Assembly (NCBI RefSeq): GCF_026419855.1
Contig: NZ_JAOAKP010000004.1
Location: 1-60,957, forward strand
Length of the DNA: 60,957 nt
Origin: Methanothrix sp.
GTDB lineage: Archaea > Halobacteriota > Methanosarcinia > Methanotrichales > Methanotrichaceae
Direction: 5' to 3'
A model generated the notes under the pieces. The model was given only the letters and a program-made list of their open reading frames with translations, did no database searches and was not told the DNA's origin. This document shows, one piece after another, positions 3,906 to 11,889 of the stretch (its first letter is position 1; each line of letters starts with the position of its first letter). The position numbers were made by a program, and so were the translations under genes.

Positions 3906-4814
3906 TCATACCATTCTGTTCCTCGGGTGTGACCACACCGGCCACACCTCCATCTCCTCCAGCGCCTCTGAAATCATTATATCTGTCATGGCCACAACAG
4001 GAAAAACAGTTTCTGCGTTCTCGATCGGGCCGTAGAGGACAAGGCTGGCACAGAACGATGCTGCAAGGGCTGCTGTGGATGCATCGCATGAGTTCCTCAC
4101 GCTTCTATCCTTCGATCTCAGCCACTCCCACGAGCTTGCAGCATTGTGCATCCCGGAGCAGACTGGCAGGCCGAGCTTCGCCTTTGCGACGATGGCGAAC
4201 CTGAGCGCGGCTCCGGCGCCGCTCCCAAGAGGCGCTACGCCGGGATCCAGCAGCATGTTGTTTATACCCGCATCTCTGGCAACTGCCAGGAGACCACCCT
4301 CACGGCTCAGCAGCTCCATCCTGGATTCAACGCTCGATGCATTCGGGCTGAAGGCGAGCAGTATCGCTGAGTCGATATCCGATTCCATCAGCAAACGCAT
4401 CTCCATCTCATTGGATGCCAGACCTATGCTATTGTAGATCGTGCGATCAGCGTATCCTACCTCTGTCACATGTATTGCCATCTCCGCCCTAGTCCCCGGA
4501 TCGAACGAGTCTATTATCAGGGGTCCATTCCAGATGGGATCGATGAAATCCAGATACTTTTCAAAAGCGCGCCGGGTGCTCGCGAATATGTGCAGCACCC
4601 CCGGATTTCCGGTCTCCTCTGAGATCTCAGCCTGCTTGTTTATGAGCTCCTCAGCCCGCTTCCCATCGAATATGCCCATCTCCTCATTGGAGACTATGTT
4701 ATGACCATGGTAGAACACGGTCCCGGCCAGAGCTGTGGGAAGCTCCCCTGGCTGACCTCCGATGCGAAGGCCTGCGATGTTGATAACCGATTGATCTCTG
4801 GCAAATCTGAACAA
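3906..4814 (-). CDS. mtrH: MtrH-family methyltransferase (tetrahydromethanopterin:corrinoid)
   Basis: 302-residue homologue of MtrH, the subunit of the N5-methyl-tetrahydromethanopterin:coenzyme M methyltransferase that moves the methyl group from methyl-tetrahydro(sarcina)pterin to the corrinoid on MtrA. The start MFRFARDQSVINIAGLRIGG and the segments AGTVFYHGHNIV, LINKQAEISEETGNPG and LLDPGVAPLG match the family's TIM-barrel fold; the length is normal. It follows an mtrA-like gene by 44 bp on the same strand. No mtrB, C, D, E, F or G is nearby, so the pair is not the energy-conserving Mtr operon. It resembles the mtxA-mtxH type paralogues described in Methanosarcina, probably soluble methyltransferases acting with another methyl donor or acceptor. 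Confidence 0.88.
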   Translation of the reverse strand: MFRFARDQSVINIAGLRIGGQPGELPTALAGTVFYHGHNIVSNEEMGIFDGKRAEELINKQAEISEETGNPGVLHIFASTRRAFEKYLDFIDPIWNGPLIIDSFDPGTRAEMAIHVTEVGYADRTIYNSIGLASNEMEMRLLMESDIDSAILLAFSPNASSVESRMELLSREGGLLAVARDAGINNMLLDPGVAPLGSGAGAALRFAIVAKAKLGLPVCSGMHNAASSWEWLRSKDRSVRNSCDASTAALAASFCASLVLYGPIENAETVFPVVAMTDIMISEALEEMEVWPVWSHPRNRMV

Positions 4815-4858
4815 GCTCCATCACCCGCTAATGCATCTATCGAACGTGAATGCTGTTT

Positions 4859-5440
4859 CTACGTTGGTAGAAACACTGCCCATGCATCTACATCCAGATA
4901 CACATCCAGTCCGAGGCTGACGTCGATATCTCCCCGCTGGACTCTTGACCTATGCGTTTTTTTGATGACCTCAAACGGCGGCTCGGGAAATGGCTCTGCT
5001 ATCCCACTGTAGTGCTCAACAACCCTCTCAATCTCAGCGACATCCTCAACCCCTATCATATCCACCACAGCGATCTGCCGGCGGAATCGATCGACGGCCT
5101 CGCGCTGGAGGTTCTGGATGAACGGTATCGCGCCCGCAGCGCCTATGATTTTACCGCTGCTGTCAATGCCGTTCCTGTGCAGGGATACTATCGCATTGCC
5201 AGGCAGGTGACCCCGCGACTCAGCACCGCAGACGATCAGGTACCTTATATTCGGGTTGGAGATCAGGTTAGCAACGATCTTCTCCACCCCGAGATTCTCG
5301 GTCTTGCATGTTCCAACTATGGCTGCTCCTCTGATATCCAGGCTGCTTGCAAGCGTGACCACCGCGACGCCCCGTCTCCTGTCAACAACCCTGTAATCAC
5401 CGCGAACTGGCGGCCAGCCATCATGCCAATCGTCGTCCAT
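4859..5440 (-). CDS. mtrA: MtrA-like corrinoid protein without membrane anchor
   Basis: 193-residue homologue of MtrA, the corrinoid-carrying subunit of the Mtr methyltransferase. Conserved MtrA segments are present: PVRGDY, KTENLGVEKIVANLISNPNI, VCGAESRGHLPGN, IIGAAGAIPFI and RFRRQIAVVDMI. His78 in CGAESRGH corresponds to the histidine that ligates cobalt in MtrA. Genuine membrane MtrA ends in a hydrophobic helix; here the C-terminus (DIDVSLGLDVYLDVDAW) is charged and has no membrane segment, so the protein should be soluble. It heads a two-gene unit with the mtrH-like gene. A TATA-like TGATAAAGG on the minus strand near 5533-5545 may drive it. The methyl source and acceptor are unknown. Confidence 0.85.
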   Translation of the reverse strand: MDDDWHDGWPPVRGDYRVVDRRRGVAVVTLASSLDIRGAAIVGTCKTENLGVEKIVANLISNPNIRYLIVCGAESRGHLPGNAIVSLHRNGIDSSGKIIGAAGAIPFIQNLQREAVDRFRRQIAVVDMIGVEDVAEIERVVEHYSGIAEPFPEPPFEVIKKTHRSRVQRGDIDVSLGLDVYLDVDAWAVFLPT

Positions 5441-5857: not shown

Positions 5858-6127
5858 ATGGCAGAAGATGATGTGGTGTTCGTCGGCAATAAACCAGTGA
5901 TGAACTATGTACTGGCTGTAGTGACCCAGTTCAACAGCGGTGCGAAGGAAGTCAGGATAATGGCAAGAGGGCGTGCGATCTCCAGAGCTGTCGATGTCGC
6001 TGAGGTCTCACGCAGCAGGTTCCTGGGCGATGTTGTGGTAAAGGACATAAAGATATCGACCGAGACGTTGAACACGGACAGAGGGGAGACCAACGTCTCT
6101 GCGATAGAGATCGTACTTGGAAAGTGA
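5858..6127 (+). CDS. albA: DNA/RNA-binding protein Alba
   Basis: 89-residue Alba, a small dimeric chromatin and RNA-binding protein of archaea. Family signatures: [20 protein letters not shown] at the N-terminus, [21 protein letters not shown] in the middle and a C-terminal [11 protein letters not shown] strand. The lysine usually acetylated in Sulfolobus Alba (in the GKKP loop) is replaced in the GNKP loop by the Asn-Lys pair. The gene is preceded by GGTGGTGACC and a long structured leader. It overlaps the start of purN by 11 bp, so purN is probably translated by coupling. Confidence 0.95.
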
Positions 6128-6782
6128 TACCTTTACCGGCTCGACGCCCCTTTCGCGCATTGGTGTTATCTCCTCAGGGCGCGGGGAGAATCTCAGGTAC
6201 ATAATAAAGGCCACCAGATCAGGTTACCTGAGGGCAGAGGTGGTGGTCGTCCTGACCAACCAGCCGGATGCTGGAGCTCTCAGAATCGCCGAGGAGTTCG
6301 GTGTTCCGGCTGAGTTCATCGACCCGACAGGCCTGTCCAGAGAGGATTACGACAGGCTGCTCATCAAAAGGCTTGATGATGCAAGGGTCGATCTGGTGGT
6401 CCTGACAGGCTACATGCGCATCCTCTCGCCTGAGTTCGTGCGGCACTACAGGAACAGGATTCTGAACATACATCCTGCTCTCCTGCCCTCTTTCAGGGGA
6501 GTGGATGCCTTCCAGCAGGCTCTGGATTATGGCGTGAGATGGACCGGAACGACGATACACATCGTCGACGAGGAGGTCGATCACGGTCCCATTGTGTATC
6601 AGGTGCCTGTTCCGGTGAAGCCGGATGACACTCATGAGAGCCTCAAGGCGAGGATCCAGAGGGCTGAGTACAGGGCGTATCCAAAGGCAATCAAGATGTT
6701 TCTCGAGGGGAAGCCGAGGATAGTGGGACGGAGGGTGGTGTTTGAGAGGCAGGTATCCGATTGCAAGAGCGTTAGATCTTAG
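6117..6782 (+). CDS. purN: Phosphoribosylglycinamide formyltransferase PurN
   Basis: 221-residue GAR transformylase (purine biosynthesis step 3), using a 10-formyl-folate-type donor. Seen motifs: [13 protein letters not shown] near residue 18 (phosphate loop), the catalytic [12 protein letters not shown] with Asn and His near 119-121, and [13 protein letters not shown] carrying the catalytic Asp. The reading frame begins at TTG 6117, inside the end of albA; no ATG or GTG gives a complete N-terminal beta strand, so TTG is the best start. Many archaea use formate-dependent PurT or PurP instead of PurN, so presence here tells of a folate- or pterin-linked route. It lies in an operon albA-purN-HIT. 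Confidence 0.9.
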
Positions 6783-8063: not shown

Positions 8064-8146
8064 ATTTTGATGTACCCCCATAATATCTGGCTTTGTATCG
8101 CCATCGGTCCCAACCTATTTATGTCTATCCGTGGAGCCGATTGCAC

Positions 8147-9577
8147 ATGCAGGGCTGCTTTGAGATTCTGCACAAAGACCTGGCCGGCAGGATAGGGAAG
8201 CTTCACACGCCCCACGGCACTGTGGAGACGCCGGCGCTCATGCCTGTGGTGAACCCACACATCCATCTGCTTGACTCCCAGAAGCTGGCGGATCTCGGCG
8301 CTGAGATGATCATAACAAACAGCTACATCATCCACCAGGATCCCATGCTCAGGGAGGCGGCGCTCGAGCGTGGAGTCCACGGGCTTCTGAATTTCGGCGG
8401 GCCAGTTATGACAGACTCGGGCGCATTCCAGCTCTCCGTTTACGGTAGTGTGGACATAGAGCCGCTTGAGATATTTGAGTTCCAGCAGGAGATACGCTCG
8501 GACATCTCCGTGCCGCTGGACATACCAACATCTCCTGATGCTCCCAGGGAGCAGGCTGAGAGGGAGCTCGCGGAGACGGAGAGGCGGCTCAGGGAGGCGG
8601 TGGACCACAGAAGGGATGATCTCCTTCTCGCAGGGCCGGTGCAGGGCGGTATTTACCCTGATCTCAGAGAGTCTGCGGCGCGCAGGTTGAGGAATATGAG
8701 CTTCGATGTGTACCCGATCGGCGCGGTCGTCCCGCTAATGGAGAGCTACAGATTCAGGGAGCTTGTCGATGTGGTGGTTGCATCGAAGACCGGCCTGGGT
8801 CCTGGGGTGCCTGTCCATCTCTTCGGCGCCGGCCATCCGATGATATTTGCACTTGCAGCCGCCCTTGGGTGCGACCTCTTCGATTCCGCGGCGTATGCGC
8901 TTTACGCACGTGATGGAAGATACCTTACACCCACCGGCACATACAGGCTTTCTGAGCTGAGATATCTGCCCTGCTCGTGCGATGTGTGCAGAAAGCACAC
9001 GCCTGAATCCCTCAGCGAGGACCCAAAGAGGGTGGAGCTTCTCGCCCGCCACAACCTCGCGGTATCATTCCAGGAGATCAGGGCCGTGAGGCAGAGCATC
9101 CACGACGGACACCTCTGGGAGCATCTTGAGAGGAGATGCAGATCACATCCGAGGATGTATCAGGCATTAAGGCATCTCTCAAGATACGCGGAGTACCTTG
9201 AGAGGCTTGATCGCGTGTCGAAATCGACACTGTTCTATCTGAGCAACGAGTCTGCGAGGAGGCCAGAGGTCCTGAGGTACAGAAAGCGAATCTGCAGGCT
9301 GGAGCTTAAGGGAAGGGTCCTGGTGACGGACAAGCGTCCTGAAAATGTGGAATGCAACAAATACGATCACATCCTGGGTTTCCTCCCTCCATTCGGGCCG
9401 TATCCGCTGGGCCTGGAGGAGATGTACCCGCTGAACGCCGAGCTGCCTGGTGAGATGGATGAGAATGCGGTAAAGGAGGCGCTTGATACCTTGAGATCAC
9501 TTATCAGAGAGAACCCGGGCGCGGAGTTCCATGTTGAGATAAGCTATCTGGAGGGCTGCAGGGATGAGGTTCTTTGA
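8147..9577 (+). CDS. tgtA: Archaeosine tRNA-guanine transglycosylase (PUA-less)
   Basis: 476 residues. Exchanges guanine-15 of tRNA for preQ0 in archaeosine synthesis. Catalytic barrel: TDSGAFQLSVYGSVDI (active-site Asp, near residue 88) and the nucleophile region DIPTSPDAPREQAE near 124. Zinc site: CSCDVCRKH near 278. Archaeal TgtA of the Pyrococcus type continues into a PUA domain; this protein stops after the C1-like domain, and the PUA domain is found only on the next gene. ATG 8147 is preferred: a TATA-like CCTATTTATG near 8115 sits about 28 bp upstream, suggesting a leaderless message. Overlaps arcS by 14 bp. Confidence 0.93.
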   Translation: MQGCFEILHKDLAGRIGKLHTPHGTVETPALMPVVNPHIHLLDSQKLADLGAEMIITNSYIIHQDPMLREAALERGVHGLLNFGGPVMTDSGAFQLSVYGSVDIEPLEIFEFQQEIRSDISVPLDIPTSPDAPREQAERELAETERRLREAVDHRRDDLLLAGPVQGGIYPDLRESAARRLRNMSFDVYPIGAVVPLMESYRFRELVDVVVASKTGLGPGVPVHLFGAGHPMIFALAAALGCDLFDSAAYALYARDGRYLTPTGTYRLSELRYLPCSCDVCRKHTPESLSEDPKRVELLARHNLAVSFQEIRAVRQSIHDGHLWEHLERRCRSHPRMYQALRHLSRYAEYLERLDRVSKSTLFYLSNESARRPEVLRYRKRICRLELKGRVLVTDKRPENVECNKYDHILGFLPPFGPYPLGLEEMYPLNAELPGEMDENAVKEALDTLRSLIRENPGAEFHVEISYLEGCRDEVL

Positions 9578-11273
9578 GGTTCTCAGAAGGGATGGCCCGG
9601 CGCGACTTGGGAGGCTGATGCTCGATCGGAACATCACGACGCCCTGCATCTTATCGTCAGAGGACTATGTGTGCGCTGGAAGCGTCTTTAGATACAGGAG
9701 CCCACAGGAGGCGAGGGAAGCCACGATCTCCCTGGCGAAATCCCAGCGGGACGGCAGGAAGCTGATAGTTCTTCCATATCCATCTGATGTGGCTCAGGAT
9801 ATCGATATGGATATCGACGCGCCACGGGCTCTGGTTACAGACATTTCATCCGTAAAAAAAGACACTCAAAAAGATGCGGATGTGTATATTCTCAGTGCAG
9901 CCGGGACCATCTCAGGCGGGAGGGATCTCGTCGATACGCTGATAGGAATCCGGGAGTCGATACCCCCTGACTCCGCGCTTTATACCCCTGCGCTTGCAAC
10001 CCCATCGAACCTCTCGCTGCTTGTCTACCTGGGCGTGGACATCGTTGACTCTGTCAGGGTGGAGATGGACGGTCATTACAGCAGGTATCATACGAGGGAT
10101 GGTGTCTTCCAGAGGGAAGAGCTCTCTGAGCTACCTTGCAGGTGCGATCACTGCTCCTCCGGAGATGTAGCGGCGCACAACATCCTTAAGCTCGAGGAGG
10201 AGCTGGTGTGGGTCAGGGAGTGCATAAGGTCCGGCACACTCAGGGAGTATGTGGAGCGTCAGGTCAGATGCGTGCCGTGGATGACCGCGGCGCTCCGGCT
10301 CGCAGATATGCAGGAGCGGTACCTGGAGCGCAGGACGCCGACGCACAGAGGGGGTGTGATGTACGCGAACACCTCGGAGTCGCTGCACAGGGTCGAGGTC
10401 AGGAGGTTTGTGAGCCGGGTGCTCACCAGGTACAGGCCGCCTGAGAGCGATGTTCTTCTCCTCCTGCCATGCTCTGCCCGGAAACCCTACTCAGAGTCGA
10501 GGAGCCACAGGCTGTTTCACTCAGTCATGGGAAGCATGCGGAGATTCGTCCACGAGCTCATCCTTACCTCACCGCTCGCGATAGTCCCAAGGGAGCTTGA
10601 GGATGTATACCCGGCGGCGCACTACGACACGCCCGTGACAGGTGTATGGGATCTGGAGGAGAGGGCCTGGCTCGTGAGCTCTCTCCGATCGTATCTGGAA
10701 AAGCACAGATACACGCGAATCGTTGCGCATATCGAGGGCGAGCTGTGCGATGCACTTCGTGATGGCGGGATTGAGGCGGTGTACACAGGCGGAGGAACAG
10801 GGCCGGGGGAGCTCGAACGGCTCAGGGAGGCGCTGGAGTTCGTTTGCAGAGACGCCAGGCCCATCGGAAACTTCAGGCTCCAGGAGTTCAGGGCGAAGAT
10901 CGATTTCTATTTCGGATCTGGAGCTGGAGATGTCCTCATTCAGGGCGCGAAGGTGAAGGGGAACAGGCTTCTCGATCCAACAGGGAAAGCGCTCGCGTCC
11001 ATCAACAGCGGCAGGATCGCGCTCACGCTGGAGGGCGCGCGGAGGCTGCTGCCGCTCAAAGCTTACACCGTGCGCATAGTTGGTTTCATCCCCAGAGGAT
11101 CCGTGCTGGCGCCAGGTGTGGTCGACGCGGACGAGCAGATCCGGCCCGGGGATGAGGTGATTGTTGTTGGAGATGGTTTCCTCGGGACAGGAAGAGCCAG
11201 GATGAGCGGGTGGGAGATGGTCGCCTCCAGGCGCGGAGTGGCCGTGGAGCTGCGGGAGGGGGCTGAGGTTTGA
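9564..11273 (+). CDS. arcS: Archaeosine synthase ArcS (TgtA2) with PUA domain
   Basis: 569 residues. ArcS converts preQ0-15 in tRNA to archaeosine or its lysine adduct. The N-terminal half is a degenerate TGT-like barrel that still has CRCDHCSSGD near residue 190. The diagnostic ArcS motif PCSARKPYSESRSH lies near 305-318. The C-terminus (about 490-569) is a PUA RNA-binding domain with LPLKAYTVRIVGFIPRGSVLAPGVV and GDEVIVVGDGFLGTGRARMS. Begins inside the end of tgtA, so the two consecutive archaeosine steps are translationally coupled. Length is usual for ArcS. Confidence 0.93.
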   Translation: MRFFEVLRRDGPARLGRLMLDRNITTPCILSSEDYVCAGSVFRYRSPQEAREATISLAKSQRDGRKLIVLPYPSDVAQDIDMDIDAPRALVTDISSVKKDTQKDADVYILSAAGTISGGRDLVDTLIGIRESIPPDSALYTPALATPSNLSLLVYLGVDIVDSVRVEMDGHYSRYHTRDGVFQREELSELPCRCDHCSSGDVAAHNILKLEEELVWVRECIRSGTLREYVERQVRCVPWMTAALRLADMQERYLERRTPTHRGGVMYANTSESLHRVEVRRFVSRVLTRYRPPESDVLLLLPCSARKPYSESRSHRLFHSVMGSMRRFVHELILTSPLAIVPRELEDVYPAAHYDTPVTGVWDLEERAWLVSSLRSYLEKHRYTRIVAHIEGELCDALRDGGIEAVYTGGGTGPGELERLREALEFVCRDARPIGNFRLQEFRAKIDFYFGSGAGDVLIQGAKVKGNRLLDPTGKALASINSGRIALTLEGARRLLPLKAYTVRIVGFIPRGSVLAPGVVDADEQIRPGDEVIVVGDGFLGTGRARMSGWEMVASRRGVAVELREGAEV

Positions 11274-11355
11274 AGGGGTGCAATCAATCAAAGCATGCCA
11301 ATGAGATGCGGTAACGCTCTCGCCGCAAAATAAAAAATGGTCCCCTTCAGGGTCC

Positions 11356-11889
11356 TCAGGATGCACCGTAGAGCTTCTGAATTCCTGCGGTATCTCCACC
11401 GCCCAGTGTCCACCGTGAGGTTCCATCGTTGTATCCGTACATGATCTGGTTCTTGTTGCTGTCAGCGTACAGATCCGCGAGACCCAGCGTGTGTCCGAGC
11501 TCGTGCAGTGCGATTGTGCGGATGTCGAAGCAGTTCGCCTTATTGCCTTCAACCTGATCAATGCGCCAGCTAAGTCTGTTGTTGTACCAGCAGTCTGATT
11601 CAACCGCCTGAGTATACAGCTTGCCGTCGGCACCTGTTACAATCTTTGCCCTTGTGTACCATGTGACTGTCATGGCTATTGTATTATCGGAGAGACGTGT
11701 ATCCGAGGTCCACATGTGCACGTTTTTGTAGTCACGTGTGCCGTAATTTCCAAAGTCACGGTCGAATCCATAGCTTGCTTCCGCAACATTCCCGAAAAGG
11801 GCCTCAGCAGCTACAGTGTCCCAGCTAATTTCTGCAGATGTAATTTGCGATTTCACGCTGTCCACGGAAAGCGAGGATGGTGGATCCAT
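11356..11889 (-). CDS. Matrixin-type zinc metalloprotease, 3' part of a frameshifted gene
   Basis: 177 residues from the first ATG in this frame. Metzincin zinc site HELGHTLGLADLY near residue 129 (HExxHxxGxxD), with Met-turn IMYGYN about 20 residues later, so a peptidase of the matrixin (M10) type. The ATG at 11889 lies inside the catalytic fold: the same frame stays open upstream for about 50 codons and encodes KPAPSEPSYKLSGYRWSRNP, the usual first strand of a matrixin domain. That stretch has no start codon or signal peptide of its own, but it runs on directly from the end of the upstream secreted gene in another frame. The two are probably one secreted protease of about 430 residues interrupted at a C5/G5 run (11984-11988). 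Confidence 0.75.
   Translation of the reverse strand: MDPPSSLSVDSVKSQITSAEISWDTVAAEALFGNVAEASYGFDRDFGNYGTRDYKNVHMWTSDTRLSDNTIAMTVTWYTRAKIVTGADGKLYTQAVESDCWYNNRLSWRIDQVEGNKANCFDIRTIALHELGHTLGLADLYADSNKNQIMYGYNDGTSRWTLGGGDTAGIQKLYGAS

Follow-up and report, generated by a model that had tools for sequence, protein, structure and literature searches.

What does a pair of MtrA and MtrH homologs do away from the Mtr complex, and between which donor and acceptor might it carry methyl groups? The question is raised by two minus-strand genes at positions 3906 to 5440 of the window, the 60,957-nucleotide stretch of a Methanothrix sp. contig (NZ_JAOAKP010000004.1) analyzed here. The initial annotation described them as an orphan soluble MtrA-MtrH pair, and the observation itself is confirmed. 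Mtx genes of this kind have been in print since 1997 (cited in PMC4632066), and the soluble MtrA families of Methanosarcinales, including mtxXAH, were described by Wang et al. in 2015 (PMC4632066). The family is already described, and no demonstrated function was found in the literature; the window pair is its Methanothrix version. The new details are Ser75 next to the cobalt ligand of MtxA, His75 in the pterin pocket of MtxH, and a C-terminal β module that replaces the membrane helix in MtxA.

The gene pair and its genome

The upstream gene (mtxA-like; 4859 to 5440, minus strand) encodes a 193-residue soluble MtrA homolog, a predicted corrinoid (B12) carrier that matches Pfam family PF04208 with an E value of 3.7e-57 (193.2 bits; cut-off, 25). 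The downstream gene (mtxH-like; 3906 to 4814, minus strand) encodes a 302-residue MtrH homolog, a predicted TIM-barrel pterin:corrinoid methyltransferase that matches PF02007 with an E value of 9.6e-97 (324.1 bits; cut-off, 22.8) and TIGR01114 with 329.8 bits, over the cut-off of 271.4. As annotated, it directly follows its partner on the same strand, after a gap of 44 bp (4815 to 4858), with the small correction that its start codon is a TTG at 4814, preceded by GGTGAT. A promoter scan gave nothing above chance, using a sigma-70 pattern that is unsuited to archaea.

The genome (1.9 Mb in 147 contigs, 99.88% complete) encodes two MtrA and two MtrH proteins in all. The canonical copies lie in a full mtr operon, which the annotation had proposed to look for and which is found on contig C114. 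The window proteins are 54% (MtrA, over 134 residues) and 43% (MtrH, over 296 residues) identical to these canonical subunits. None of mtrB to mtrG is encoded nearby, as claimed: when MtrA to MtrH of a sister genome were compared with the whole window by tblastn (E ≤ 1e-3), only the mtxA-like and mtxH-like genes were matched.

Family placement and related systems

In the MtrA tree (67 rows), the Mtx clade comprises 38 rows (support, 98/92) and is separate from the canonical clade of 22 rows (100/99) and from the 7 rows (100/96) of Mtr2, a complete Mtr that ANME-2 archaea have in addition to the first one (Chadwick et al. 2022; PMC9012536). Its members come from Methanotrichaceae, Methanosarcinaceae, ANME-2-type archaea, and Methanocellales-like archaea. 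The MtrH tree (67 rows) recovers an MtxH clade of the same set with weaker support (94/74), with the Methanotrichaceae at 100/100 and the canonical proteins apart at 100/100; it carries a warning on the long Mtr2 branch, places row L112 among the canonical proteins, and includes JdFR-19 (L170) as a long, unstable row. Judged from these trees, the window pair groups with Methanosarcina MtxA and MtxH, apart from canonical Mtr and Mtr2. Either a genome devoid of other mtr genes or a canonical grouping would have refuted the annotation, and neither is observed.

The resemblance to Methanosarcina mtxA-mtxH that had been suggested holds in both trees, and only in part elsewhere. Like mtxXAH of Methanosarcina (group II mtrA and subgroup II mtrH in PMC4632066; NF010654), the window locus combines a soluble MtrA that retains the histidine with an adjacent MtrH, and the two MtxA proteins share the same C-terminal module. 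It differs in its next genes, in the long branch formed by the window's genus, and in the MtxA score on NF010654, which at 213.2 bits is below the cut-off of 279, yet the best of its NCBIfam matches; M. acetivorans MtxA passes this model with 374.7 bits. In addition, mtxX is located on another contig (C136:25870-26430), so that the window genome has an Mtx-clade pair but no mtxXAH operon.

Canonical Mtr (mtrEDCBAFGH) has a homologous corrinoid domain and MtrH, with the pterin and cobalt residues conserved; the window pair differs from it by the missing membrane helix, the absence of mtrB to mtrG nearby, and the separate clades. Mtr2 also provides divergent MtrA and MtrH copies in the same class (PMC9012536), but it keeps the membrane subunits and the helix, and the window pair neither belongs to a second operon with membrane subunits nor groups with Mtr2. 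The cytoplasmic MtrA of Methanothermus fervidus (5laa) is another soluble MtrA domain that binds cobalamin. It is 97% identical to the membrane MtrA of that organism (PMC4915002), which makes it a separate, near-copy case, and it has Val where Mtx has Ser75. MtgA, the methylcorrinoid:H4F methyltransferase of Desulfitobacterium (6sj8), shares the MtrH-family TIM barrel and has pterin residues equivalent to the ones in MtrH (PMC12774963). However, it is an H4F enzyme of glycine betaine use, and the window MtxH scores 205.1 bits on NF047990, where the cut-off is 550. The name MtxA has a different meaning in PMC10805028 and PMC6855144.

Further MtrA-type genes are found in the class. A second complete mtrEDCBA-H operon of the Mtr2 type, followed by genes for a Mer-like protein, an aldehyde ferredoxin oxidoreductase, and DUF2193, is present in two Methanotrichaceae genomes (L104/L105; G048 and G049) and in a third genome (L103; G050); Mtr2 has been described from ANME-2 and Argoarchaeum (PMC9012536). 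Many Methanosarcina-like genomes (genus g31) have at least three MtrA-type matches, the third copy perhaps being group III of PMC4632066.

Sequence and structural features of MtxA

The annotation held that MtxA keeps the cobalt-ligating histidine at position 78 and has lost the membrane helix, and both statements stand. His78 (codon at 5207 to 5209, minus strand), the predicted lower axial cobalt ligand, aligns with His84 of Methanothermobacter marburgensis MtrA (8q3v_A; also 5laa_A) and is invariant in the soluble homologs, in 30 of 30 sequences of one alignment and in 32 of 32 of another. The peak 19-residue hydropathy of MtxA is 1.55, at residue 25 within the core, compared with 2.15 at the C-terminal helix of the genome's own canonical MtrA; by this measure, MtxA is predicted to have no membrane helix. 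Its AlphaFold2 model (32-row alignment; pLDDT, 88.1) has the solved MtrA domain 5l8x_A as its best PDB match (TM score, 0.74/0.83; E value, 3.8e-16). Three residues ahead of the cobalt-binding histidine, Ser75 is present in all 38 MtxA sequences, whereas Val is found there in all 22 canonical and all 7 Mtr2 MtrA proteins.

Where canonical MtrA has its membrane helix, MtxA has a small C-terminal module (about residues 172 to 193; 4862 to 4927, minus strand). It is carried on a flexible linker (block pLDDT, 54) and modeled by AlphaFold2 as three short strands (residues 174 to 177, 180 to 183, and 188 to 190; pLDDT, about 70 to 76). Its residues Asp173 and Asp183 are conserved in Mtx and have no counterpart in canonical MtrA. 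In the Mtr complex, a three-strand sheet at the N terminus of MtrB carries MtrH (PMC12774963). The resemblance of the MtxA module to this sheet is suggestive only. Profile comparison gives a score of 14.9 over 21 columns with a probability of 5%, a score reached by 1 of 200 column shuffles, and the MtrB profile scores 10.5 on the best MtxA tail; of 1,000 shuffles, 886 were scored, and the highest value among these is 8.3. The reverse search did no better than shuffles, and Pfam found no MtrB in 10 tail queries covering 9 MtxA tails (one tail was given twice). The module is missing in both fused MtxA-MtxH chains, which are encoded in L087 (9118 to 10689, plus strand) and in L202 of Methanococcoides alaskense (9950 to 11434, plus strand).

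The pterin pocket of MtxH

Residues D102, N128, D190, and N224 of MtxH are invariant in all 65 aligned MtrH sequences (36 Mtx, 22 canonical, and 7 Mtr2), and their equivalents surround the pterin in two papers on Mtr structures (PMC10998594 and PMC12774963). Residue 75 sets MtxH apart: it is His in 35 of the 36 MtxH sequences and Gln in all 22 canonical and all 7 Mtr2 MtrH proteins. Gln75 lines the pterin pocket of M. mazei MtrH (PMC12774963), and MtgA, a structurally known H4F enzyme, has Asp at this position, as read from the alignment. The annotated role of a soluble pterin:corrinoid methyltransferase pair fits the retained His78 and the four pterin-binding residues, and on this sequence evidence the pair very probably has that activity.

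Phyletic distribution

Soluble MtrA is found in 32 of the 33 Methanotrichaceae genomes that are at least 90% complete. By our own count, it is present in 90 of the 155 genomes of the class with the same completeness, namely, these 32 of 33 in family f1, 8 of 8 in f3, and 50 in f6. Seven Mtr2-type matches (in G048:C129, G049:C179, G050, G059, G062, G070, and G071) were left out of this count, the first five because the operon was read, G070 on the basis of mtr genes on two separate contigs (L110 and L118), and G071 on the basis of a truncated match. The word orphan is too strong for a pair that the family as a whole conserves and whose soluble MtrA occurs in this many genomes of the class.

MtxH adjoins MtxA in 71 of 80 named loci; in the others, the two are fused (1 locus), cut by a contig edge (5 loci), or unlinked (3 loci, of the M. 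harundinacea type). In one genome of the latter type (G011), MtxH is encoded some 230 kb from MtxA and has the same neighbors, the aconitase X and mtd genes. This adjacency, the fusions, and the retention of MtxH in G011 indicate that MtxA and MtxH most likely work together, whether or not their genes are linked.

MtxAH is not tied to mtxX or to methanogenesis. The mtxX gene, unlinked to the pair in the window genome, is split in two in G016 and was not found in G006, G175, G182, or G188; a broken mtxX has been noted in M. concilii GP6 (PMC4153887). The last three of these, small archaeal genomes (L212, L213, and L214), encode MtxAH, and searches of them found no canonical MtrA (E ≤ 1e-20), no McrA, and no MtxX.

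Gene neighborhoods

In the window's genus, the pair is on its own, and alba and purN are oriented divergently from it. The purN gene (phosphoribosylglycinamide formyltransferase; 6117 to 6782, plus strand; TIGR00639, 215.3 bits; cut-off, 150.1), a neighbor outside the operon, lies beside mtxAH in all six genomes of the genus that were read, possibly as a vestige of the association with C1 biosynthesis that relatives show. Elsewhere in the Methanotrichaceae, the genes after mtxAH are mostly those for the two aconitase X parts, and often mtd and an aminotransferase gene follow as well. In G011, where mtxA lies elsewhere, and in G048, where a TPR gene separates mtxA from mtxH, mtxH still precedes the aconitase X genes (L113, L114, and L038 to L052).

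Clusters of C1 genes are found in two other clades. Five of the 13 ANME-2-type loci that were read have the order mtxAH, a DHH-like gene, purN, glyA, folD, a folP-like gene for a pterin-binding protein, metV, and metF (L095, L158, L163, and L165, with L155 cut by the contig end); L160 and L161 end just past the DHH-like gene. The names purN, glyA, and folD in these loci come from sequence reading and from the cluster in PMC9012536, whereas metF, metV, and the pterin-binding protein were identified by family models, as were MesA, marker 14, ThyA, and Mch. Among the nine Methanocellales-like genomes read, five have mtxAH clustered with marker 14 and MesA, and four of these five also with ThyA, the fifth being cut by a contig end. 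The full order, on one strand, is mtxAH, a DHH-like gene, marker 14, MesA, ThyA, and Mch in L171, L179, and L182, and the same up to the contig end in L184; L212 (G175) has mtxAH, marker 14, MesA, and ThyA. The MesA of L171 scores 333.4 bits on NF002119 (cut-off, 258). In L167, marker 14 and ThyA are present without MesA, and the C1 cluster is absent in three of the nine genomes (L159/L214, which are the same contig and counted once, L164, and L213). On the opposite side, past rfcL, L159, L164, and L214 carry genes that by eye resemble those of CODH/ACS. The linkage to C1 clusters was noticed post hoc, comes from two clades other than that of the window, and in neither of them extends to more than about half of the loci that were read. 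The next genes in most Methanotrichaceae are the aconitase X parts rather than C1 genes, which counts against a biosynthetic reading.

Methyl donor and acceptor

Methyl-H4SPT is the probable donor in the Mtx family; several Methanotrichaceae have mtd, which belongs to the H4SPT pathway, a few genes away from mtxH. A biosynthetic role has a somewhat better than even chance, and a methionine synthase is a plausible, if slightly less than even, candidate for the acceptor. The only methionine synthase found in the window genome is a single MesC (C11:2404-3315, 305.9 bits), which is encoded on a different contig from mtxAH, among neighbors that by eye are not C1 genes. The queries were two M. acetivorans proteins identified by motif and place, with residues that match the MesC positions given in PMC7857596. 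Two such MesC-type synthases are encoded in tandem in M. acetivorans (L210:4488-6779) and are missed by Pfam family PF01717. This model has no match in the window genome either and misses the MesC of that genome as well, so that the lack of a PF01717 match does not indicate that methionine synthase is missing. MesC is found in 150 of the 155 class genomes, including 62 of the 65 without MtxA. MesC therefore does not require MtxAH, and, as it is nearly universal, their co-occurrence is uninformative.

MesA, linked to mtxAH in the Methanocellales-like genomes listed above, is absent from G182 and G188. In G175, the gene of MtxA, the sole MtrA-type protein detected there, is next to that of MesA. 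This arrangement is the strongest single pointer to methionine, a role that for the window genome is inferred. CoFeSP, rather than MtxA, has been predicted as the donor for MesC, and MtrA as the donor for MesA (PMC7857596); which corrinoid methyl donor methanogens use for methionine has been stated to be unknown (PMC9012536). A literature search by titles and abstract openings, with most subscription journals outside its scope, found no tie between Mtx and methionine.

Proposed function and alternatives

We give an even chance to the overall reading that the window pair is a soluble methyltransferase pair of the Mtx clade whose methyl-MtxA serves biosynthesis, most likely that of methionine. 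MtxH would bind a methylated pterin, most likely methyl-tetrahydrosarcinapterin derived from acetate, and transfer its methyl group onto the Co(I) of a corrinoid held by MtxA through His78. Without a membrane helix and MtrCDE, methyl-MtxA would stay in the cytosol, and the transfer would be uncoupled from sodium export. The methyl group might then pass to homocysteine via a core methionine synthase, MesC in the window genome and MesA in some relatives, so that MtxH, MtxA, and MesC would work like a split MetH.

The donor could instead be methyl-tetrahydrofolate, with the pair linking the folate C1 pool to methionine. This donor was favored at first for the linkage of the pair to metF, glyA, and folD, part of the glyA-folD-metV-metF group in 5 of the 13 ANME-2-type loci read, and the His at position 75 of MtxH, in place of the canonical Gln and the Asp of MtgA, also speaks for it. 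It was weakened by the absence of MetF from all 33 Methanotrichaceae genomes, 32 of which encode MtxA. Methyl-H4F is therefore an unlikely donor in the window genome; MetF is present in 118 of the 122 other genomes of the class, among them 60 of the 65 without MtxA, which also speaks against the folate link, and we consider that link improbable. Another reading reverses the direction: some unknown methyltransferase would load methyl groups from methylated substrates on MtxA, from which MtxH would transfer them to H4SPT. In principle, the reaction can run both ways. For Methanosarcina, an earlier proposal had methanol and trimethylamine enter by such a route (PMC4632066, citing Harms and Thauer 1997), and MtrAH of other archaea has been suggested to feed methyl groups into the Wood-Ljungdahl pathway (PMC9635834). 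However, no gene for a substrate:corrinoid methyltransferase was seen by eye beside the pair, either in the window or in the conserved clusters, and MtxA is found in none of the 26 genomes of genus g28, from context the methylotrophic Methanolobus. Methanothrix is not known to be a methylotroph, and we consider entry through MtxA to have a low probability.

Acetate-grown cells need methyl-coenzyme M, and methyl-MtxA might supply it via a soluble coenzyme M methyltransferase, forming methyl-CoM without sodium export. The chemistry of the second half of this bypass is known from MtaA/MtbA. It would waste the sodium-pumping step, though, and MtxAH is kept in three genomes without McrA, which leaves it very unlikely. 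There is a similarly slight chance that the two proteins are accessory or spare subunits of canonical Mtr, serving in assembly, exchange, or stress response. The Mtr complex holds its MtrH loosely (PMC10998594), and the soluble M. fervidus MtrA, 97% identical to its membrane form (PMC4915002), indicates that spare copies exist in other methanogens. The Mtx proteins, by contrast, form long, separate clades, are only 43 to 54% identical to the canonical subunits of the same genome, and are kept as a pair in three genomes without canonical MtrA.

If the biosynthetic role is correct, acetate-derived methyl groups of Methanothrix would reach biosynthesis by a dedicated soluble branch rather than through the sodium pump. 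The linkage to MesA, ThyA, and Mch and the presence of MtxAH without Mcr or canonical MtrA make this a testable role in a tractable host, Methanosarcina. A further, rather unlikely proposal is that methionine synthesis in these archaea obtains its missing corrinoid methyl donor in MtxAH, which would form with MesA or MesC a three-part synthase that is fed by methyl-H4SPT and unlinked from sodium pumping and methanogenesis, and that MtxA imitates, with its C-terminal module, the β sheet by which the N terminus of MtrB holds MtrH. As a copy of this sheet, the module would make MtxA carrier and dock in one chain.

Other genes in the window

Two further loci of the window contain paired genes. At positions 297 to 2744, a GlcD-like FAD oxidase and an adjacent iron-sulfur protein most similar to TfrB are encoded on the same strand. 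In this acetate specialist, they are candidates for a 2-hydroxyacid or glycolate dehydrogenase. At positions 8093 to 11273, two overlapping genes appear, by eye, to encode an archaeal tRNA-guanine transglycosylase and a second paralog.
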